NCBI RefSeq assembly: GCF_016757965.1
Contig: NZ_JAEKIW010000005.1
Location: 1 to 64,000, forward strand
Direction of reading: 5' to 3'
Source: Archaeoglobus neptunius
GTDB taxonomy: Archaea; Halobacteriota; Archaeoglobi; Archaeoglobales; Archaeoglobaceae
Length of the DNA: 64,000 nucleotides
The notes under the pieces were generated by a model, which saw nothing but the letters and a program-made list of their open reading frames with translations, ran no database searches and was not told where the DNA came from. The translations under genes and the position numbers were made by a program. The number at the start of each line of letters is the position of its first letter. Position 1 is the first letter of the stretch. Shown here piece by piece: positions 4,876 to 15,108 of this stretch.

Positions 4876-5330
4876 GCTATCTCCTCCACGATCTAATCAC
4901 ATAATCTATAATGATCTTTTCTATGATAAATTTTTTGATCGAAATCTGCCTTCTTTTTTTCCGAAATTATTCCTCATCTCCCAGCAAATCTTTAGTGAAA
5001 CTTGACGAGAAAGCGATAAATTGATAATCAGAGAGAAAGGGAAAGGAACGCTAACTAAGCCAATAGCAGAGGTCAAGAATGTAATATCTGGGATAGTAAA
5101 GCAGATATAAAACTAACAAAATTAAAGAAGCTGGGGAGACCGAAGAAAGCTATCTGGGGAATAATATGGATGCAACGCAATAGTTCTCCAAAAAGATATT
5201 CGGGAGAAATAGGCTAAAAAATAACCAAGGACAAGATCATGATGTATTAGAAATGGATGGCTGAGCGAAATGGGAGTTATGGATTACCTTTTCTAAAAAG
5301 TTTTAAATACAACTGATTTCAAACACATCG
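4876..5330. other. AT-rich intergenic region at the left edge of the defence island
   Basis: About 455 bases with no convincing intact gene. It holds the korD promoter on the left and the radical SAM operon promoter on the right. A short rightward frame at about 5119-5214 reads LGRPKKAIWGIIWMQ followed by RNSSPKRYSGEIG and a stop. This basic, tryptophan-rich string recalls the N-terminal region of transposases but is too short and damaged to assign. No copy of the tRNA-Met 3' end is visible here. Confidence 0.4.
5301..5309 (+). promoter_or_regulatory. TATA box of the radical SAM-drm operon
   Basis: TTTTAAATA preceded by an A-rich BRE-like AAAAAG. It lies about 26 bp before the GTG at 5331 and 35 bp before the ATG at 5340. 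A start of transcription near 5330 would give a leaderless or nearly leaderless message. No other promoter is evident before 14850, since all the following genes overlap or abut. Confidence 0.6.
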
Positions 5331-6500
5331 GTGAGTGTTATGCACGTGCTGTTAGTAAAGCCGATGTTTTACACTAGGTATCCTCCTATTGGCTTACTTA
5401 AAATAGCCTCCTATCACAGAAACCTAGGAGATACAGTTGAATATATTGAAGGCGAAAAAGTTCCCACAGGAAAACCAGATTTGATTTATATTACAAGCCT
5501 ATTCACTTACGCATGGAAGCCTGTCTATAGGGCTGTAAAATACTACAAGGAGATATATCCAGACGTTAAAGTGATTCTTGGTGGGATATACGCTTCTCTT
5601 ATGCCTGACCACGCGGCACTTTCAGGAGCTGACGAGATTTATGTAGGGTTGTTCGAAGAGGCTGAAGACCTTATGCCTGCCTACGATTTAGTTCCGGATT
5701 GGGATGGTAGTATTATTTTTGCGTCTCGTGGATGCATAAGAAGATGCCCGTTTTGTGCAGTTCCAAAGCTTGAAGGAGGGATTAGCAGGATTAGGGACAC
5801 TATAAAGCCACTTGTTTATCCAAAACACACTAAAATAATACTTTGGGATAACAATATATTGGCGTCACCAAAATGGAGGGATATATTCGACGAACTGGAA
5901 GAACTCGGCAAGAAGGTAGACTTTAATCAAGGAATTGATGCTCGACTAATTACCGATGAAATTGCCGAAAAACTTGCGAGTCTAAAAACAAACATCTTGA
6001 GACTTGCTTATGATTCAAAATCGGAAAGAAAAGCTTTAAAAAAAGCTATTGAGAAATTAAATGCTGCGGGAATTAATGGACGAAAAATACTCGTTTATAT
6101 TCTTTACAATTTCCGTGATGACCCACAGGACTTTTACGAAAGAGTTAGAGACGTTCTTGAATGGGGTGCTGTAGCTTATCCGATGAGATTTGAGCCGTTA
6201 GATAGCCTTGAAAAGAACAAATATGTCTCTCCAAACTGGTCTGTAGAACAACTAGAAATGGTTGCAAAAGCTCGCAGAGTTCTCGGTTATTCCGGTGCTT
6301 TGCCACCCTATAAAGCACTGGTAGAGAAATTTCGAAAAGCAGAAACATTTGAAGAGGCATTCAAGTTGAGGCCACCCTCTAAGAAACAAAAAAAGAATAC
6401 AAGGAGAAAATTTAACAAGAAGTCTGCTGAAAGTAAGAGATATTATGACCTTTACAACAAAATCGTGGTGGATGATGTAGGGGGTGTAATTAGGTCATGA
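5331..6500 (+). CDS. B12-binding-type radical SAM protein, first gene of the DISARM-like operon
   Basis: 389 aa from GTG 5331 (386 from ATG 5340, which has GGTGAG just upstream). The N-terminal 120 residues resemble a cobalamin-binding domain (PPIGLLKIASYHRNLGD; VILGGIYASLMPDHA). The radical SAM motif follows as SRGCIRRCPFCAV with cysteines near 135, 139 and 142. Then come WDNNILASPKW and DFNQGIDARL, seen in COG1032-type Fe-S oxidoreductases. The last 45 residues are lysine/arginine rich (KKQKKNTRRKFNKK), suggesting nucleic acid contact. The stop overlaps the helicase start (ATGA). It takes the place a methyltransferase would hold in a DISARM operon; that it modifies DNA, RNA or protein is only a hypothesis. 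Confidence 0.8.
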   Translation: MSVMHVLLVKPMFYTRYPPIGLLKIASYHRNLGDTVEYIEGEKVPTGKPDLIYITSLFTYAWKPVYRAVKYYKEIYPDVKVILGGIYASLMPDHAALSGADEIYVGLFEEAEDLMPAYDLVPDWDGSIIFASRGCIRRCPFCAVPKLEGGISRIRDTIKPLVYPKHTKIILWDNNILASPKWRDIFDELEELGKKVDFNQGIDARLITDEIAEKLASLKTNILRLAYDSKSERKALKKAIEKLNAAGINGRKILVYILYNFRDDPQDFYERVRDVLEWGAVAYPMRFEPLDSLEKNKYVSPNWSVEQLEMVAKARRVLGYSGALPPYKALVEKFRKAETFEEAFKLRPPSKKQKKNTRRKFNKKSAESKRYYDLYNKIVVDDVGGVIRS

Positions 6501-9500
6501 ATAATGCGATTGTAGAAAATGAATTTTGCGAATTTTTAGTTGAAGAGGTAATAGAAAGATTAAAAGGGAGCCACCCACATTACTCCCGATTAATTCTTCT
6601 AAATCAATACCCTCATAGGTATATAATATTAGGTAGTCTCGCACCGAAAATCATTAGAGGTAGTAATGACAGTAGTGAGTTAGAAATGTTTGAGAGTGAA
6701 GAAGTTAGGAAAACAATAATATCTGACAGGGTAAAATCGATTAGTTTTCTTCTAAATTCAAACGAAGTAAACCTGAAGCTGAAGGTTAGTTTTTACGTAT
6801 TCTTTAGGACTGTACCGACTTTAGAAGAGCAAGTACTATTTCTGAGAGGTTACGAAGGACCTATCAAAGATTTTATAGGAGACTTCAGAACAGAAATAAC
6901 AAATCCTGAACATGAATATCAAATTGCGCAAGTATGGCAGCGGAAGCTGGTGGTAATTGAGAAGGACCTGAAATTAAATTTAAATGGCTTAATACAGGAC
7001 CCACTTGTCATCTCTTTAAAAGAAGACGCTATCAGAGCTCTTAAGGAAGGAGGAGAAACTATAAAAGTACCAAAAATATCTAAAAAATCGTTTGTTGGTA
7101 TCGAAGCTCTAGAGAGCAAAGAAAAGTTCGAAGAAGAAATATCACGCTACAGTACTGAAATTACCGTAGATGAGCTAGTCAATGATTTTCTTAACGTATA
7201 TCTTTACATTAACTGCGAAAACTATGAGCAAAATGGACAAGTCTTTAAAAAAATCAGGATAGTTATAGTAAATAACACCATATATGACAAAAAGAGACAC
7301 AAAAACATATACTTAGACCCAGCCATTTTTGACTGTAATATAACAGTGCTCCTAAGTGATGATATTTTTCCCTTTAAAGTAAGAAGTCCCTCAGGTGAAA
7401 TCATAGAAATACCTGTCAGAGCGAACAACTGCAGTGCTGAGTACACTAAAAATTCAGAGTTCAGTTTAATAGAGACTCAAAACTTCCTTCGTTATGATGA
7501 GCCCAGAATTCGCCCCAGAACATCTCCCCCAGACAAACCAGATATCTTCCCAAAATTTTCCGTATTATCGGACCTTGACAATGGAGGTTTTGAAATATTG
7601 GAAGCTATATATGACAGCCTCAGAGGATACTATTTGACGTTGGCTCAAGAAAGACCAGAACTAAAAGACCATATCTATGACTTCATAAAAAAATACAATG
7701 AGGGTTTAACTCTTCTAACAAACGATACTAACGCTAAAAAAGCATTCGAATTGATGAACAAAGTCTTCGACCACTACTCAAAGGATGATTTCGACTCCTG
7801 GAGGTTGTTCCAGATAGTTTTCATAATATGCAATTTACCAGATGTAGTCACTATGAAGGACTTGGACAGCGTAGACCTCCTAAATGTGTTTACAGGGGGA
7901 GGAAAAACCGAAGCTTACTTCGGTTTATGCATGTTCGCTGCATTCTACGATAGACTCATTGGGAGAGATTTCGGGACTACAGCCATAATCAAGTTTCCTC
8001 TGCGAATGCTCTCCATCCAGCAGCTTCAGAGGTTGACGCATATTTTAATAAGTGGCAATTACATTAAAAATCATGAGAACATTGGAGGCGAGGACTTTTC
8101 GCTTGGATTTTTTGTTGGAAAGAGTGCTGAATTCCCTGGGTCGTCTCTCTTAATTATACGAAGACTTAAACCAAATACTCCGGGAAAGTTCATAGATTCC
8201 TGCCCACTCTGCAATTCCAAAGTGTATTTGACTTACGATCATCAAAGTCTCGCTATATATCACACCTGCTCAAATGACAGTTGCTTTCTTAGTAAAGGTT
8301 TGGCGATTCACTATACACAACAGGAAATCTACCGATTTATGCCAACTTTCATTGTCAGTACTGTTGATAAAATGGGTTCGATAGCCTACAACAGACGTTT
8401 TAGAGGGCTAATCGGAGGGAAGGTCAGAAGGTGCAGAAAAGGACATGGATTCTTCCCTGATGGGGATAAGTGTACAGTATCCATTATAAAAGGAAAGGAA
8501 AAGATAATGTGCAATGATCGTGGAGAAGAAGTATCCTTGCCGAACACTTTTGGACCAAGACTGATGATACAGGATGAACTTCACTTAATTCGTGAAGGTT
8601 TTGGGTCAATCGTATCTCACTTCGAGACGCTGATAGAGACAATGAAAGAAAGATTTACTGGAAGTCGTCTAAAATACCTCTGCACAACAGCCACAATTGC
8701 TGGTGCTGATAACCAAGTCTTTAACCTATATCTTAAAAAATTAAGAGTTATTCCTCCAGAATCTGGATACGACATATCCAAGTTCTTCTTTGAGTCCGTA
8801 AAGGAAGATGACAGGCAGATTGTTGGCAGATATGTCTTAGGGCTAAGACCCAATTTAAGAGACAACCAGTATGCAACTCTCTTAACACTTCGCTACATAA
8901 TTCAAGTTATTCTGTCAGCCATGTTAAAACCTAGTGAAATTGCTCAGAGACTGGATATTTCTGAAGAAGATTTAAGACAACTCCTTAAAAACTACATGTC
9001 ATACCTAACATATCACAACAAGAAATCTGACGTCCAATCTACAGCCTTTTATCTCAGAGACGTAGTTGAATCAAAGTTCTATTACAACCCGTCGCTGGAG
9101 ATAAGGAGGTTGCTTTTAAGAAAAACTCTAACAGGAGATAATACAACCGAACAAGTTAAAGAAGTTGTGAACGAGTTGATAGATTTTGAAAAATTGAAAG
9201 AACCAAGAATCTTCGTAACTTCTGCGACCAACATTGTTTCTCACGGAGTTGACATTAAGTGGTGGAATATAATGTTGTTCCAGGGAATGCCGAGGAATAC
9301 GGCAGAATATATTCAGGCATTGAGCAGAGTAGGCAGGAGTTCAAGCGGGATCGTGTTCGTATGGTATTATCCCAATAGAGTCAGAGACTTAGACTTCTAC
9401 AAGAATTTCAAGATATATCATCCAGTTCTTTATAAACACGTTGAGCCAGTTCCCATTACAAGATGGTCAAAGCTGGCGTTAGACCAAACAATACCTTCCG

Positions 9501-9883
9501 TCTTTAGTGCGTCGATTATTAATTACTTGTCTGAGTTGAAGAAAAAACCAATTTATTCAGACTCGCATTTCATACGATATCTTATAAATGAGGAAAGTAG
9601 CGAGGAAGATGTTGACCGAAACTTTAGGACGATTCTGGATTTCATAGAAAAAGCTTACATGAGAGATTTTGAAGATTGGCAGTCGCAGGCGCTTACAATG
9701 CTTATACCAAAGAAAGTTGAAGAACTTAGGAAAAATGTCTATAACCAAGCCAGATACAGGTCAGAAAATTTCTTCCCGAGACATCTTAGATTGCTTTACG
9801 GATTGAGAGGAATTCAAGACATGATTAGCCTTGAATATGATTCAGATACAAGTGTGTTTATACGGAGGAACTCTGGGAGGTGA
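6497..9883 (+). CDS. drmA: DrmA-like helicase of a DISARM-type defence system
   Basis: 1128 aa. Superfamily 2 helicase with a long N-terminal region (about 450 aa), Walker A TGGGKTEAY at 466, a DELH box at 693-696, motif III TATIAG, SATNIVSHGVDI near 907 and motif VI QALSRVGR at 940-947. A zinc-finger-like CPLC...CSNDSC pair lies between motifs I and II. This large split helicase beside a DUF1998 protein and a PLD protein is the drmA-drmB-drmC core of DISARM, where DrmA with DrmB loads on invading DNA. Strongly AT-rich codon use. Other DUF1998-linked helicase systems are the alternative, but the PLD neighbour favours DISARM. Confidence 0.85.
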   Translation: MNNAIVENEFCEFLVEEVIERLKGSHPHYSRLILLNQYPHRYIILGSLAPKIIRGSNDSSELEMFESEEVRKTIISDRVKSISFLLNSNEVNLKLKVSFYVFFRTVPTLEEQVLFLRGYEGPIKDFIGDFRTEITNPEHEYQIAQVWQRKLVVIEKDLKLNLNGLIQDPLVISLKEDAIRALKEGGETIKVPKISKKSFVGIEALESKEKFEEEISRYSTEITVDELVNDFLNVYLYINCENYEQNGQVFKKIRIVIVNNTIYDKKRHKNIYLDPAIFDCNITVLLSDDIFPFKVRSPSGEIIEIPVRANNCSAEYTKNSEFSLIETQNFLRYDEPRIRPRTSPPDKPDIFPKFSVLSDLDNGGFEILEAIYDSLRGYYLTLAQERPELKDHIYDFIKKYNEGLTLLTNDTNAKKAFELMNKVFDHYSKDDFDSWRLFQIVFIICNLPDVVTMKDLDSVDLLNVFTGGGKTEAYFGLCMFAAFYDRLIGRDFGTTAIIKFPLRMLSIQQLQRLTHILISGNYIKNHENIGGEDFSLGFFVGKSAEFPGSSLLIIRRLKPNTPGKFIDSCPLCNSKVYLTYDHQSLAIYHTCSNDSCFLSKGLAIHYTQQEIYRFMPTFIVSTVDKMGSIAYNRRFRGLIGGKVRRCRKGHGFFPDGDKCTVSIIKGKEKIMCNDRGEEVSLPNTFGPRLMIQDELHLIREGFGSIVSHFETLIETMKERFTGSRLKYLCTTATIAGADNQVFNLYLKKLRVIPPESGYDISKFFFESVKEDDRQIVGRYVLGLRPNLRDNQYATLLTLRYIIQVILSAMLKPSEIAQRLDISEEDLRQLLKNYMSYLTYHNKKSDVQSTAFYLRDVVESKFYYNPSLEIRRLLLRKTLTGDNTTEQVKEVVNELIDFEKLKEPRIFVTSATNIVSHGVDIKWWNIMLFQGMPRNTAEYIQALSRVGRSSSGIVFVWYYPNRVRDLDFYKNFKIYHPVLYKHVEPVPITRWSKLALDQTIPSVFSASIINYLSELKKKPIYSDSHFIRYLINEESSEEDVDRNFRTILDFIEKAYMRDFEDWQSQALTMLIPKKVEELRKNVYNQARYRSENFFPRHLRLLYGLRGIQDMISLEYDSDTSVFIRRNSGR

Positions 9884-9888
9884 TACAC

Positions 9889-11793
9889 ATGAACAGGATG
9901 AATCTGGATTTTTCGGCACACAGCGCACTTTTTAGGGCTATGAAGAATATGATAGTTATACACGACGATTTCGTGTTCAGAGTAAAAAGTCTTGAGAGAA
10001 GACATCCATCTAAAGATATTAACATCACAAGATTAAAGAGGGCAATTTTTAACGAAATCCAGAGACTTTTCAACTTCAGAATTCAAAGTTATAACCTCCT
10101 ATATCCTCCCATAACAGATGACGAAATTGCAGGACTCAGCATTCACCAAATAGTTGTAAAGAAGGATGAGACACAAGAAGACGATGTTTATGCTGGCAGA
10201 GTTGAGTTATATCCTTTAGTTTTTATGTGTGATATATGTGGAGATTTTAGAGAGATCAGCTCTCAAGACTTGCAGTACTTCGATACGAAATGTTGCGTCC
10301 AAGGATGTAATGGGAACTATCGTCAGTTAAGCCTGCTACGCTACTGCCGAGAATGCGGTAAAGTCGAGCATTTTCGCTATTGGTGTAGGGCTGAGAATGA
10401 TAGAAGCCTTTCTCAGAAGTATACTGAGCACCCGATACAGCTACTCCAACCATCCAAAGACGCTCTTTTTGGCTGGAAATTCAGGTGCAAAACATGTGGA
10501 TGGGAAAAAGATATATTTGATTTCTCTTGTGACCATTTCGACCAAAAAGCCCAAAAAAAGATTTCCGATAAACCACCAACCAAATTCGACCCCCTGACAA
10601 TAAGAGAAGGGGGCGTATTCCAACCAATCGTGAAAACATACGTTTCTATAGAACCTTTAGAAAACGAGAAGATTCTGGAGGAGGAAGAACTCCTTATTGC
10701 GGTTGGTTACCACCTCGGAATGTTCTCATTTTTAGAGGACATTCTGAAAAGAAGTGAGGGAGAAGCAGAAATTATGAGCTTCAAGCAGGTTAAAAATTTA
10801 CTAAGTTCTCTTAGAAACCTAAAATCAGCAGGGTTAATTAGGTCTGAGCAAGAGAAAGTCTTGGACCAAATGGAGTCCGTACTGGAAAATCTCAAAACCG
10901 CAATAGGACTCATTGGAACAAGAAACCTTGATGAATTTCTTACGATTAAAGACCTGACGATGCCTAGGGGAGACCCCGATGACATTTACAGTCGCTTCGT
11001 CAAAGATTACGAAGGACATCTTGAAAGTTCAAGTCTCCCAGCTGATAAAAAGGAGGAAATAAGGAATAAATACAAGAGAATGTGTGGGAATTTTGGGATT
11101 CAAAATATCACCTATATCCCTGAAATTAAACTTGTTTCAGCATACATCGGCTACATCAAAGGGCCGTTTCCGAGAGATGGGGTACCTCATTTTGAGCCAA
11201 TTTGGATAGATGAAAGAAAGAAATTTGATGTCCACGAGCGAAATTTTGAAGCGTACATACACCCTTACAACACAGAAGGCATATTAGTTGAGTTTAATCC
11301 TCTCAAAATAGTAAGTTGGCTGCGTGAAAATGGCTTCGATGAGCTACGTGCCAACAACGAAAGCGAAGCACGAAAATTGCTTGTGCTTTTACGAGAAGAG
11401 AGTGATGACGGGCCCTATAACATGATTTTCAGACTCCTACACACTTTTTCTCATGCTTTCATGATGAATGCAAGTACATACTGTGGTCTTGACACGGATT
11501 CCTTGGGTGAGATTATTTTCCCCTCCGCAACTGCCGTAATGATATACTCGACAAGCGTGATAAACATTGGCGGGCTTCAATATATGTTCGAAAACAACTT
11601 ACCTGAGGTTTTAGAAGATATGCGGAATCACATTCAAGAATGTATCTACGACCCTGTATGCTCTTCAGAAGGAGGAGCTTGCTTTGCATGTATGTATCTA
11701 CCAGAATACGTCTGCGGGTATCTCAATCAAACTTTGGATAGAAGGATTTTTACAGGTTCGGAAAGTTTGCGGGGGTTCTGGGAACATGGCTAA
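9889..11793 (+). CDS. drmB: DrmB-like DUF1998 protein of a DISARM-type system
   Basis: 634 aa. I chose the ATG at 9889 over the in-frame GTG at 9880 because GGGAGGTGA at 9876-9883 stands five bases before it. Zinc-finger-like clusters occur in the first third (CDICGDF, CVQGCNG, CRECGK, CKTCGWE). The C-terminal DUF1998 domain holds HTFSHAFMM, GLDTDSLGEIIF and a Cys-rich end (CIYDPVCSSEGGACFACMY). In DISARM, DrmB binds DrmA as the second core subunit. The gene starts just after the drmA stop, and its own stop lies inside the drmC start region, so the subunits are likely made in a fixed ratio. Confidence 0.83.
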   Translation: MNRMNLDFSAHSALFRAMKNMIVIHDDFVFRVKSLERRHPSKDINITRLKRAIFNEIQRLFNFRIQSYNLLYPPITDDEIAGLSIHQIVVKKDETQEDDVYAGRVELYPLVFMCDICGDFREISSQDLQYFDTKCCVQGCNGNYRQLSLLRYCRECGKVEHFRYWCRAENDRSLSQKYTEHPIQLLQPSKDALFGWKFRCKTCGWEKDIFDFSCDHFDQKAQKKISDKPPTKFDPLTIREGGVFQPIVKTYVSIEPLENEKILEEEELLIAVGYHLGMFSFLEDILKRSEGEAEIMSFKQVKNLLSSLRNLKSAGLIRSEQEKVLDQMESVLENLKTAIGLIGTRNLDEFLTIKDLTMPRGDPDDIYSRFVKDYEGHLESSSLPADKKEEIRNKYKRMCGNFGIQNITYIPEIKLVSAYIGYIKGPFPRDGVPHFEPIWIDERKKFDVHERNFEAYIHPYNTEGILVEFNPLKIVSWLRENGFDELRANNESEARKLLVLLREESDDGPYNMIFRLLHTFSHAFMMNASTYCGLDTDSLGEIIFPSATAVMIYSTSVINIGGLQYMFENNLPEVLEDMRNHIQECIYDPVCSSEGGACFACMYLPEYVCGYLNQTLDRRIFTGSESLRGFWEHG

Positions 11794-12373
11794 ATTGACA
11801 GACTTATTAGAGATTATAGACAAAAAAACTTCGGTTGTTTGCTTAAGCTACCCCTTTTTTGATAAGTACGGGATATCTGCAGAAATTGAGTACTCAACTG
11901 TACTCTCACTGCATGACTGCTTCCAATTCCTATTTGAAGTTGCTGAAAAGAAAATAGATATTTGCTCCCCATTTATTGAAGCTAACGCCTTACTGAGGTA
12001 TAAAGACATTCTGCGTGAAAAGATTGAAAATGGAGTAAGGCTCAGGATCGTGGCAAGGGTGTTAGATACCGCTGAGGACAGACCTCTTGGCAAATTGAAT
12101 AGTATAGTCCAACACATTAATCCACAAAACTATCCAAACCTAAAAATCTATCAGTACCATTATACTAGCCCCCGTGGAAAACTGCTAAGTGGGATACATG
12201 CAAAATTCATAACGGTAGATGGCAAATTTTGCTATTTGGGAAGTGCGGATATTAAAAATTCTTCGTTACTAAAAAACCTTGAATTAGGAGTCCTCACATC
12301 AGACAAGGAGATCGTCAAAGTAACGGAAATGATTTTTAAGGAGCTTGTTAGAGTATCTGATGAAGTTGGATAG
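11786..12373 (+). CDS. drmC: DrmC-like phospholipase D family protein
   Basis: 195 aa from ATG 11786, overlapping the drmB stop by 8 bp; a longer frame to 11684 lies inside drmB and is unlikely. There is one PLD/HKD motif, HAKFITVDG (H138, K140, D145), followed by YLGSADIKNSSLLKNLELG, the usual Gly-Ser and Asn positions. A single HKD implies dimerisation to form the active site. It is somewhat shorter than the roughly 240 aa I recall for DrmC. Nuclease activity is expected from the family, and DrmC has been reported as dispensable in some DISARM systems. Confidence 0.78.
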   Translation: MAKLTDLLEIIDKKTSVVCLSYPFFDKYGISAEIEYSTVLSLHDCFQFLFEVAEKKIDICSPFIEANALLRYKDILREKIENGVRLRIVARVLDTAEDRPLGKLNSIVQHINPQNYPNLKIYQYHYTSPRGKLLSGIHAKFITVDGKFCYLGSADIKNSSLLKNLELGVLTSDKEIVKVTEMIFKELVRVSDEVG

Positions 12374-12378
12374 TGATC

Positions 12379-14850
12379 ATGAGCGAAAATAATAATGTTT
12401 TCAAATGGTGGGAAGAGTTCAACCTTACCTTTCGTAATCCTAAAAAAAAGAGTATGGACGTGTGTATATCCAGCGGCAAAAAGCCCTTTTTATCTCCATA
12501 TACTAACTTTATAATTAACACGTCAATTGAACTAATGAAAAAAGGAAAGAACGTTGTAATTGCATCTTTTAAACCGATAATTCGCCCTATGCCACTCATT
12601 GGGTACATGGCATCCAAAATATTTCGTAAAGATGTCGAGATCGTCACTTATCGGAGTTCAAAAGAACATCACAACGCTTACTGTTTATTAGCAGAAGCGA
12701 ACTACGTTTTTCTTTCAGTCCCTCCTATATTGGCTAAACAAAACGAGGAAGAAGGTCTTGTTTACCATTTGCAACCTTACATGCCAAAAGTGGGACGTAG
12801 CAGAAAATTGGATTTACTACAGGACGCTACTAAATCCTTAGGCACTTCAAACAAAGTACTGTTCTCAGAAAACTATTTAGTATTGTCGCAAGGAGAAGTT
12901 GAGATAAACGTTAAAAACGAAAAAGTGTTAGCAAGGTTAGAACCCAGAGTCTTCTTAATTGAAAATGGAAAGTTTTACTTAAAACATTCAAAATACTTCA
13001 TGAAGTTTGCCGAAAACGTTGATGGTACCTTCCTGATTTACATACAATCATCACTCAATGATGTTGTTTTAGAGTTTGCCAAAAGCCTCGACGCTGAAAT
13101 TATTTATTTACCACAGTCTTTTTTGTCACTTACTAAACATCATGCATACGATAAGTACAAAACAAAAATCTCCAGTAACAAATTCTTATTCACTGCTGGA
13201 TTTCCATTCTCAGAAGATGGATGGTTTTTAAAAGATGCCCAAGCTTTGCTTGATATGTTGAATTTCGACCACGAATATGATTACTTCTACCCCAAGATTG
13301 AAATTGTGGGTATAAAAGGGTTCGAAAACTTAAAAGTACACCTTCAAAATATCCTAAAACAACTTTATGGGTTATTTCAGGCTCAGGTAAACATAAAGTA
13401 TCTTATAGGAGACGTTTACAAAACCTCTACAAAAGCAATAAGGAGATTCCTACCTCCTGACTTAATATCCAAGTACAACCCTCGCACTGGATACCCTGAA
13501 ATTGAGTACGAATACTACTTAAAACAGATTGAACGTGCCCTTAACCGTATATCAGATGGCCGATTCTATGCTAAACTTCATGATGTTCGTTATAGCTTTT
13601 CAGCGATCTGCAACACCCTTAAACAAGTCAGTAGACCCTATAGTAAAGATAGTTTCCCAGATAGTAAATTGATGACTTTGCTAAAACTATTAAAACAAAG
13701 GGAGCCTGGAAAAAGATACTATATTTGCTGCACCAATGACCCAGTTAGCACTGTTGAAAGAATAGTCAAAAATTATCTGGGTGATACGAACACCCGCAAT
13801 GGGGTAATAGTCCTTAATCCAAATAGTCTTGCAGACCTCCTGAGTAAGAATGAAATAAAACCCAATTCGGTTTTAGTAGTCTCAGACCCAACAAGTGTAT
13901 TTAAGTTACTACCTGCCCCATTTGATAAAGTGTTCGTCTTGGCTTACGAAGGCGTTGAAAATTATGAAGAACTTGAAAACTGGGAAATAAAAAAAATATA
14001 TGATACAAAGTTGGCTATCGATTTGATTTACAGCTTGCATAGACAGCTCGGAATAGAACCTCCAAAGTTATTCTCGAAACTTCTAAAAGAGTTAGTCGGA
14101 AAACGTGAAGAAGAATATCTCAAGGAAATATCAAGAATGAAAAAAGTTCTACCTAAAGTTAGAGATGAACACCGCACTCCGTCTTACTATCAGAAAAGTG
14201 AAAGAAGTGTCCGAACTTGCAGAGTATTGTTAGAACCCTTAAAAGGAGGCATGTGTCGTGAATTGGAGGGTACACTCAACAAACGCATCCTGAGAATCGA
14301 GGAATCTACAGGTTTCGAAGTTGTTACATTATCAGAACTTAAAGATGAAGACGTGGTTTGTTTAATAGACGATGATGATAGGAAAGACTTGGTTGATTTC
14401 CTCTCTGAATTCGTCATGGAACAAGTTGATACCGAGTTTGTGAAATACTGGTATACCAAACTTGTAGAATTCCTTGCTGAGAACCAGATGACCTATTCTG
14501 AATTCTACAAAATATACAAGAGCACTAAAAAGAAGAATGTTAGAACATTTCCGGCAGTGAGACAATGGCTGCTGGGTAAAACTCTGGCTCCAGACGATAA
14601 AGATGACCTGAAGGTGCTTGGAGAAATTATGGATGATGACTTTCTGCTTGAAAATTACGCGAGGATTTATGAAGAGGCAAACAAAATCAGAAAGGTGCAT
14701 AGAATCGTTGGCAGGAAAATATACAACATTGTCAGAGGTATTATTACTTCAGACTTTTCAAGTATAACGAGCTTTGATGATGAATTGATAGCTTCCAGAG
14801 TTAGATTATACAGAGTAGTCTCAGTCGATACAGGAAATTCTACACCTTAA
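12379..14850 (+). CDS. Large protein in DrmE position; DrmE-like, function unknown
   Basis: 823 aa from ATG 12379 (a GTG at 12373 is in frame and overlaps the drmC stop). I see no canonical Walker, nuclease or methyltransferase motif. The middle has alternating helix/strand stretches such as VLVVSDPTSVF and FDKVFVLAYEGVENYEEL, which recall the RecA-like fold of a degenerate helicase. The C-terminal third is charged and helical. Class 2 DISARM carries drmE, a protein of about 800 aa without known domains, so size, neighbours and operon suggest DrmE. This rests on context rather than on a recognised signature. Last gene of the operon; AT-rich like its neighbours. Confidence 0.6.
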   Translation: MSENNNVFKWWEEFNLTFRNPKKKSMDVCISSGKKPFLSPYTNFIINTSIELMKKGKNVVIASFKPIIRPMPLIGYMASKIFRKDVEIVTYRSSKEHHNAYCLLAEANYVFLSVPPILAKQNEEEGLVYHLQPYMPKVGRSRKLDLLQDATKSLGTSNKVLFSENYLVLSQGEVEINVKNEKVLARLEPRVFLIENGKFYLKHSKYFMKFAENVDGTFLIYIQSSLNDVVLEFAKSLDAEIIYLPQSFLSLTKHHAYDKYKTKISSNKFLFTAGFPFSEDGWFLKDAQALLDMLNFDHEYDYFYPKIEIVGIKGFENLKVHLQNILKQLYGLFQAQVNIKYLIGDVYKTSTKAIRRFLPPDLISKYNPRTGYPEIEYEYYLKQIERALNRISDGRFYAKLHDVRYSFSAICNTLKQVSRPYSKDSFPDSKLMTLLKLLKQREPGKRYYICCTNDPVSTVERIVKNYLGDTNTRNGVIVLNPNSLADLLSKNEIKPNSVLVVSDPTSVFKLLPAPFDKVFVLAYEGVENYEELENWEIKKIYDTKLAIDLIYSLHRQLGIEPPKLFSKLLKELVGKREEEYLKEISRMKKVLPKVRDEHRTPSYYQKSERSVRTCRVLLEPLKGGMCRELEGTLNKRILRIEESTGFEVVTLSELKDEDVVCLIDDDDRKDLVDFLSEFVMEQVDTEFVKYWYTKLVEFLAENQMTYSEFYKIYKSTKKKNVRTFPAVRQWLLGKTLAPDDKDDLKVLGEIMDDDFLLENYARIYEEANKIRKVHRIVGRKIYNIVRGIITSDFSSITSFDDELIASRVRLYRVVSVDTGNSTP

Positions 14851-15034
14851 CTCCTAAAATTGACGGACTCAAAAAGCTTTCTTCTAACTTTTTACTATAC
14901 TTTACTTTGCATCAGAAAGTAGGAGGTAGTTAGATTTTTATAAGGGCTGAAAGTGGACAAATAGTACAATCCAAGTCTATAAAATTCGACTCCTGGTGGA
15001 AAGTCATGGTAGGGCATAGAACTGGAAGAAGGAG

Positions 15035-15108
15035 TGCCGAGGGGGGGATTCGAACCCCCGACCTCCTGATTATGAGTCAGGCGCCCCAACCAGCTAGGCT
15101 ACCTCGGC
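15035..15108 (-). tRNA. tRNA-Met (CAT), probably elongator
   Basis: 74 nt cloverleaf read from the minus strand: acceptor GCCGAGG pairing with CCTCGGC, anticodon arm CCTGA-CTCATAA-TCAGG, T arm with GGTTCGAATCC, discriminator A, no encoded CCA. The acceptor begins with a G-C pair rather than the A-U pair of archaeal initiators. It also differs from the GGGCCCG acceptor of the Ile2 type seen at 59162, so elongator Met is the best call. Its 3' end faces the DISARM-like island, the orientation expected if the island integrated at a tRNA. Confidence 0.9.

Follow-up and report, generated by a model that had tools for sequence, protein, structure and literature searches.

The window, by which we mean the whole 64,000-nucleotide stretch of Archaeoglobus neptunius DNA analyzed here, includes a five-gene operon with the order rSAM-drmA-drmB-drmC-drmE that can be considered a variant of the defense system DISARM. 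Its first gene codes for a B12-domain (class-B) radical SAM enzyme, as judged by domain and fold, and the DISARM operons linked to such a gene (rSAM) are a stable lineage. We see about an even chance that rSAM is the modification enzyme of this five-gene DISARM variant, taking the place of the methyltransferase and marking self DNA by radical chemistry. The features of the region are as follows.

5000-14990, no strand: low-GC island with the entire operon inside (GC 0.36-0.40; flanks 0.44-0.50)
5300-5309, + strand: archaeal TATA-like box GTTTTAAATA, upstream of the operon, recognized from sequence only
5331-6500, + strand: rSAM open reading frame (389 amino acids), member of phrog_9298, its N domain being of the B12-binding type; start probably at ATG 5340; AlphaFold2 mean pLDDT 89.8
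5733-5756, + strand: codons of the CxxxCxxC [4Fe-4S] motif (C135, C139, C142), invariant in 30 relatives
5916-5945, + strand: codons for VDFNQGIDAR, the family motif, in whose place a sister branch carries ESQSGFDGR
6363-6497, + strand: basic C-terminal tail, low-confidence and unconserved (composition, alignment and model)
6497-9883, + strand: drmA, SF2 helicase (PADLOC DrmA 1.9e-108; NCBIfam NF038325 9.8e-99, 331.8 bits where the cut-off is 950)
9880-11793, + strand: drmB, DUF1998/MZB protein (PADLOC DrmB 5e-29; NF038324 4.4e-21, under the NCBIfam cut-off)
11786-12373, + strand: drmC, PLD-type nuclease (PLDc_2 1.1e-14; PADLOC DrmC 1.9e-15); the reading frame opens at 11684 and ATG 11786 is the likely start
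12373-14850, + strand: drmE-like gene (Pfam DrmE_C 1.2e-15; NF038316 2.4e-16)
15034-15108, − strand: gene for tRNA-Met, bounding the island on the right

The rSAM protein probably starts at the ATG at position 5340, which would give a product of 386 amino acids, because the same residues MHVLLV open the close relatives and the TATA-like box is found shortly upstream. As stated in the original prediction, the rSAM stop overlaps the drmA start; the two share the 4 bp ATGA at 6497-6500. The idea that this overlap ties the dose of one product to the other is plausible, but rSAM is located at the opposite end of the operon in other genomes. The DrmA, DrmB, DrmC and DrmE proteins of the window were recognized using PADLOC, NCBIfam and Pfam, and all of them are divergent and fall under the NCBIfam curated cut-offs. 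The whole block looks like an acquired island, since its GC content is well below that of its flanks and a tRNA-Met gene adjoins it. This island of about 10 kb (5000-15108 with the tRNA gene) ends at the tRNA-Met gene and gyrA. For the gene of a 2-oxoacid:ferredoxin oxidoreductase in the left flank, a search of the seven other genomes of this genus gave no match at E <= 1e-80.

Both the B12-binding-like N domain and the CxxxCxxC cluster that had been described for this protein are present. Amino acids 16-111 matched Pfam B12-binding (PF02310) with an E-value of 1.7e-9, over the cut-off, and amino acids 132-259 matched Radical_SAM with 5.4e-6, slightly under it. The cluster, RGCIRRCPFC, is invariant across 30 aligned relatives. 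The PHROGs profile phrog_9298, annotated as 'radical SAM domain protein', matched amino acids 4-331 (1e-71, positions 1-298 of 305 of the model); another B12 radical SAM protein (locus L045, 9977-11287) did not match this profile. In the AlphaFold2 model residues 1-345 have a pLDDT of about 95, and the closest folds are those of AprD4 (Z 25.7), MgmA (23.3), TsrM (22.3), CysS (21.1) and MiaB (21.0), with RimO at 19.1, while the corrinoid protein 1y80 aligned with residues 1-109 at Z 9.0. A sequence search of solved structures detected weak matches to RimO and MiaB only. The CxxxCxxC motif together with a barrel fold like those of AprD4, MgmA, TsrM and MiaB identifies rSAM as a radical SAM enzyme. 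Judged by this fold rSAM may or may not use cobalamin, since the nearest folds mix B12-using and B12-free enzymes: to our knowledge AprD4 is no methylase and works without cobalamin in spite of its B12-type domain, and MiaB is, as far as we know, a B12-free enzyme. For the same reason AprD4 as best fold match weighs against a DNA mark as the product of rSAM. Several phage members of the family have a shorter B12-type domain.

The basic tail of about 45 residues noted in the original prediction is real, with 10 lysines and 5 arginines against 3 aspartates and 1 glutamate. However, it does not support the contact with nucleic acid that had been read from it, because most of the tail has a pLDDT <50, which predicts disorder, and it is absent or far shorter in the close rSAM homologues.

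An independent search of 294 genomes of the phylum identified rSAM in 21 and DrmA in 16. At 8 of the 16 drmA loci rSAM is found on the same contig at a distance of no more than 6.5 kb, and precisely these loci hold the eight best DrmA matches (the window and seven at 41-44% identity); none of the eight weaker DrmA matches is accompanied by rSAM. The chance expectation is about 0.009 rSAM-drmA pairs, and counting only four pairs as independent P is ~2e-10. A DrmA tree placed all nine rSAM-linked DrmAs of archaea in a single clade (support 100/100), among them that of Methanoregula UBA247, which was added from the genome scan; the DrmA of the viral contig L141 stands apart. The link to defense that had been proposed is therefore firmer than first supposed, as rSAM-drmA neighborhoods recur in a monophyletic DISARM lineage.

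Several arrangements were observed. Six loci include drmA, drmB, drmC, a gene for a DrmE-like protein of about 1039-1116 amino acids and rSAM, four of them with a gene for a DGQHR protein; two loci have the structure drmA-drmB-drmE-rSAM; and the viral contig has the structure drmA-drmB-NERD helicase-rSAM-GHKL. When profiles were compared, the 1039-1116-amino acid protein of the six operons aligned with the C-terminal region of DrmE (E 1.2e-6, probability 91%), and the one member that was compared with Pfam had no match. Loci of this protein family include L042 (6559-9909), L223 (8053-11382), L224 (15273-18602), L226 and L227. Contig L141 (2-14742, IMGVR_UViG_2619619281_000003), classed as viral, carries the genes for a UvrD-like helicase, DrmA, DrmB, a NERD-helicase, rSAM, GHKL and an Mrr-type nuclease consecutively.

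Two kinds of rSAM, both matching phrog_9298, occur inside the DrmA clade, one with the motif VDFNQGxDAR (the window, L042 and L223-L225) and the other with ESQSGFDGR (L226-L229), so the slot has been filled anew from another branch of the family. The position of rSAM varies between DISARM operons, as does its subclade. In one archaeal genus the rSAM-DGQHR pair adjoins DISARM in genome G289 and PbeA-PbeC in genome G196. The latter locus (L238, 7500-14949), where the pair lies beside PbeA, PbeC and a small protein, can be considered an apparent swap of the restriction module with respect to G289.

DISARM operons typically include a DNA methyltransferase, the ATPase activity of DrmAB is reduced on methylated DNA, and DISARM is able to restrict phages that have no methylation motif (PMC9142583). 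A motif scan and Pfam recognized no methyltransferase in the ten rSAM-DISARM loci (missing METHYLTRANSFERASE), and Pfam, PADLOC and NCBIfam detected neither DrmMI nor DrmMII among the genes of the window operon. As for the host genome as a whole, there was no PF00145 match, i.e. no C5 methylase was found, and the N6/N4 models gave one PF01555 match under the cut-off and a PF02384 match that, with 21.1 bits, was just over its cut-off of 20.4. Among the DISARM loci without rSAM, C5 and/or N6 enzymes are encoded in three of eight. This complementarity (0 of 10 versus 3 of 8 loci) is suggestive but not decisive, because the other five of the eight rSAM-free loci also show no methyltransferase within about 10 kb, which weakens its absence as a proof of replacement.

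A scan of bacterial and archaeal genomes identified at least 508 rSAM relatives, of which the best 80 were retained; the genes around these loci were called by a simple script, clustered, and annotated with Pfam and PADLOC. Had the original prediction been wrong about defense, homologues were to be expected chiefly in metabolic operons. The outcome was the opposite: among the best 80 of at least 508 relatives, 68 of 78 cellular loci had at least one recurrent defense-like neighbor family, a figure that reflects recurrence and is no independent test of enrichment, because it was from these very loci that the partner families were derived. The partners in the 78 loci (from the best 80 of at least 508) were a GHKL ATPase in 47, ParB-like proteins in 31, DGQHR in 26, an SNF2 helicase in 26, PIN in 7, HerA-NurA in 6, PbeA/PbeC in 5-6 and DrmA in 1. 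GHKL was the immediate same-strand neighbor of rSAM in many of these best 80 loci of at least 508, downstream in 36 and upstream in 11. The DGQHR protein corresponds to Pfam DndB and PADLOC DpdB, the SNF2 helicase is like ZorD/DpdE/DrmD, and the clusters c14 and c18 are PbeC and PbeA. The family is coupled to other modification-linked restriction modules, with rSAM, DGQHR and GHKL adjoining interchangeable SNF2-ParB, HerA-NurA, PbeA-PbeC, PIN or DISARM modules. DGQHR is found beside rSAM in L042, L223-L225 and many bacteria.

Curated plasmids of rhizobia and Novosphingobium carry the same DGQHR-rSAM-ATPase cassette with DEAD helicase, ParB and PIN genes. In proteobacterial loci (L028, L030-L032, L069, L077, L095, L113 and others) the cassette consists of DGQHR, rSAM and GHKL ATPase genes with an SNF2 helicase, two ParB-like genes and a gene for 140 amino acids, to which PIN-ATPase genes are often added. 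This cassette is a candidate defense system, unnamed as a whole by the PADLOC matches obtained here. The host's own archaeal family has only distant radical SAM proteins and one broken fragment in genome G035, at a contig end (L002, G035:C151), which is the frame-shifted remnant of an rSAM homologue with 50% identity. Two Dehalococcoidia rSAM homologues (L038, 10001-11374, and L040, 10052-11392) are extended at the C-terminus by a stretch in which four-cysteine motifs resembling zinc fingers occur (CAECGSC...CPDCH).

An alignment query of viral contigs retrieved 421 rSAM relatives; a scan of the viral contigs with the single rSAM protein gave no matches. The closest phage protein, with 51% identity, is that of Marinitoga camini virus 1, which comes from a hydrothermal-vent setting too. 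Genes of the ParB_N / N6-N4 methylase families adjoin the viral rSAM in 15 of 77 viral loci. These phage copies, often beside ParB or DNA methylase genes, are consistent with a protective modification of DNA, although other readings are possible. On an archaeal plasmid (LC711081; L035, 6609-8645) three DNA methyltransferase genes directly follow an rSAM gene that has an intein-like insertion immediately ahead of the CxxxCxxC motif.

In the mechanism that we propose, rSAM would put a chemical mark on the host DNA, either by carbon methylation or by another radical change of a base or of the backbone. DrmAB would read this mark as self and would not engage the host DNA, and viral DNA without it would be restricted. 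We infer DNA as the substrate, the role of the change as a self mark, its reading by DrmAB and the use of cobalamin. In favor of this mechanism are the co-occurrence of rSAM with a single DrmA clade, the operon structures, the lack of a recognizable methyltransferase in these operons, the reduced DrmAB ATPase on methylated DNA, the pairing with DGQHR and GHKL beside other restriction modules, the module swap between G289 and G196, the methylase genes near viral and plasmid copies, and the fold. The ability of DISARM to restrict phages without a methylation motif (PMC9142583) suggests that a self mark is perhaps not strictly needed. Two further observations count against a DNA mark: the window operon has no GHKL partner and no DGQHR protein, the latter also absent from the host genome (no PF14072 protein), and the system in L041 has both an N6 methylase and rSAM.

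The substrate could instead be a protein of the system such as DrmA or DrmB, with rSAM switching the system on or tuning it. Examples are MgmA, which methylates a glutamine in methyl-CoM reductase, and RimO, which acts on the ribosomal protein S12; both are among the nearest folds, and the rSAM gene is tightly coupled to drmA. However, members of the same family also accompany unrelated effectors and occur in many viruses that lack DrmA, which leaves no protein as a substrate common to all, and we regard protein modification as unlikely. An RNA substrate, either tRNA or viral RNA modified in the manner of MiaB, would turn the place of the gene in a defense operon into one of translation protection. 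The MiaB-RNA complexes are close in fold (Z ~21), and RtcB and a tRNA gene are located near rSAM in a Bacteroides phage; against this, the Pfam search of rSAM detected no TRAM or other RNA-binding domain and the partners of the family are DNA-directed (helicases, ParB, DndB-like, HerA-NurA, DrmA), which makes an RNA substrate decidedly unlikely.

Viperins are the known precedent for radical SAM enzymes in antiviral defense, and rSAM, being such an enzyme within an antiviral operon, might by analogy produce a modified small nucleotide to poison the polymerases of viruses. We give this very little weight. The original prediction already placed rSAM in a class distinct from viperin, and the comparison bears this out: no viperin model of Pfam, NCBIfam or PADLOC matched, viperin folds reached Z ~9 against 20-26 for the B12-domain enzymes, and the family is widespread in viruses themselves. 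A viperin-like rSAM was rejected on profile and fold. There is also a small probability that rSAM is passenger cargo of a mobile defense island, with its own role (e.g. anti-restriction on behalf of its carrier) outside DISARM. Members of the family are common among phages and plasmids, the block forms a low-GC island beside a tRNA gene, and rSAM switches side and subclade between DISARM operons. On the other hand, its gene overlaps drmA, it is consistently linked to one DrmA clade, and the slot stays filled when one rSAM subclade replaces another.

If rSAM does mark self DNA, radical chemistry would be able to write such a mark within a stable DISARM lineage, whereas DISARM is currently understood as self recognition linked to methylation. 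The phrog_9298 family would then be a general, unrecognized DNA-modification module present across unrelated restriction modules and in many phages. It is possible, although somewhat short of an even chance, that a broad and so far undescribed class of DNA-marking defense systems has phrog_9298 as its common modification engine, which would make a mark unlike known methylation or phosphorothioation, act with or without DndB/DpdB-like and GHKL proteins, have been plugged into DISARM, PbeA-PbeC, HerA-NurA, SNF2-ParB and PIN, and have been taken by phages for protection. Among openly licensed papers we found no description of an rSAM module with DISARM or defense islands, which may have been described elsewhere, and recent surveys of YprA-family helicase systems and of Dnd systems describe, in the passages searched, no such radical SAM partner (PMC12458937, PMC10853773).

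Compared with DISARM (drmA-drmB-drmC with drmMI or drmMII, and drmE variants), the window operon shares DrmA, DrmB, DrmC, a DrmE-like protein and overlapping genes, but has a radical SAM gene instead of that for the methyltransferase, and its divergent Drm proteins all score under the NCBIfam cut-offs; it is therefore a variant and not standard DISARM. AprD4, MgmA, TsrM and MiaB have the same N-terminal Rossmann-like domain followed by a radical SAM barrel (Z 21-26), but rSAM is only 13-19% identical to them, differs from them in its family motif VDFNQGxDAR or ESQSGFDGR, and is found in a context of DNA defense, while theirs are antibiotic, MCR or tRNA modification. Prokaryotic viperins share with rSAM the radical SAM class and the antiviral setting, and rSAM differs in its B12-domain architecture, a far weaker fold match and the lack of a viperin profile match. 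The profile places rSAM in the same family as the phage proteins of phrog_9298, which is catalogued solely as a phage family without assigned function, whereas the rSAM of the window belongs to a cellular defense operon. With respect to Dnd and Dpd, neither DndC nor DpdA was found beside rSAM among the annotated proteins, and the window itself has no DGQHR protein. As in Dnd, Dpd and Pbe (CxC), however, the relatives of rSAM pair with a DndB/DpdB-like DGQHR protein, some of them beside PbeA-PbeC, and their modification and restriction modules are interchangeable.
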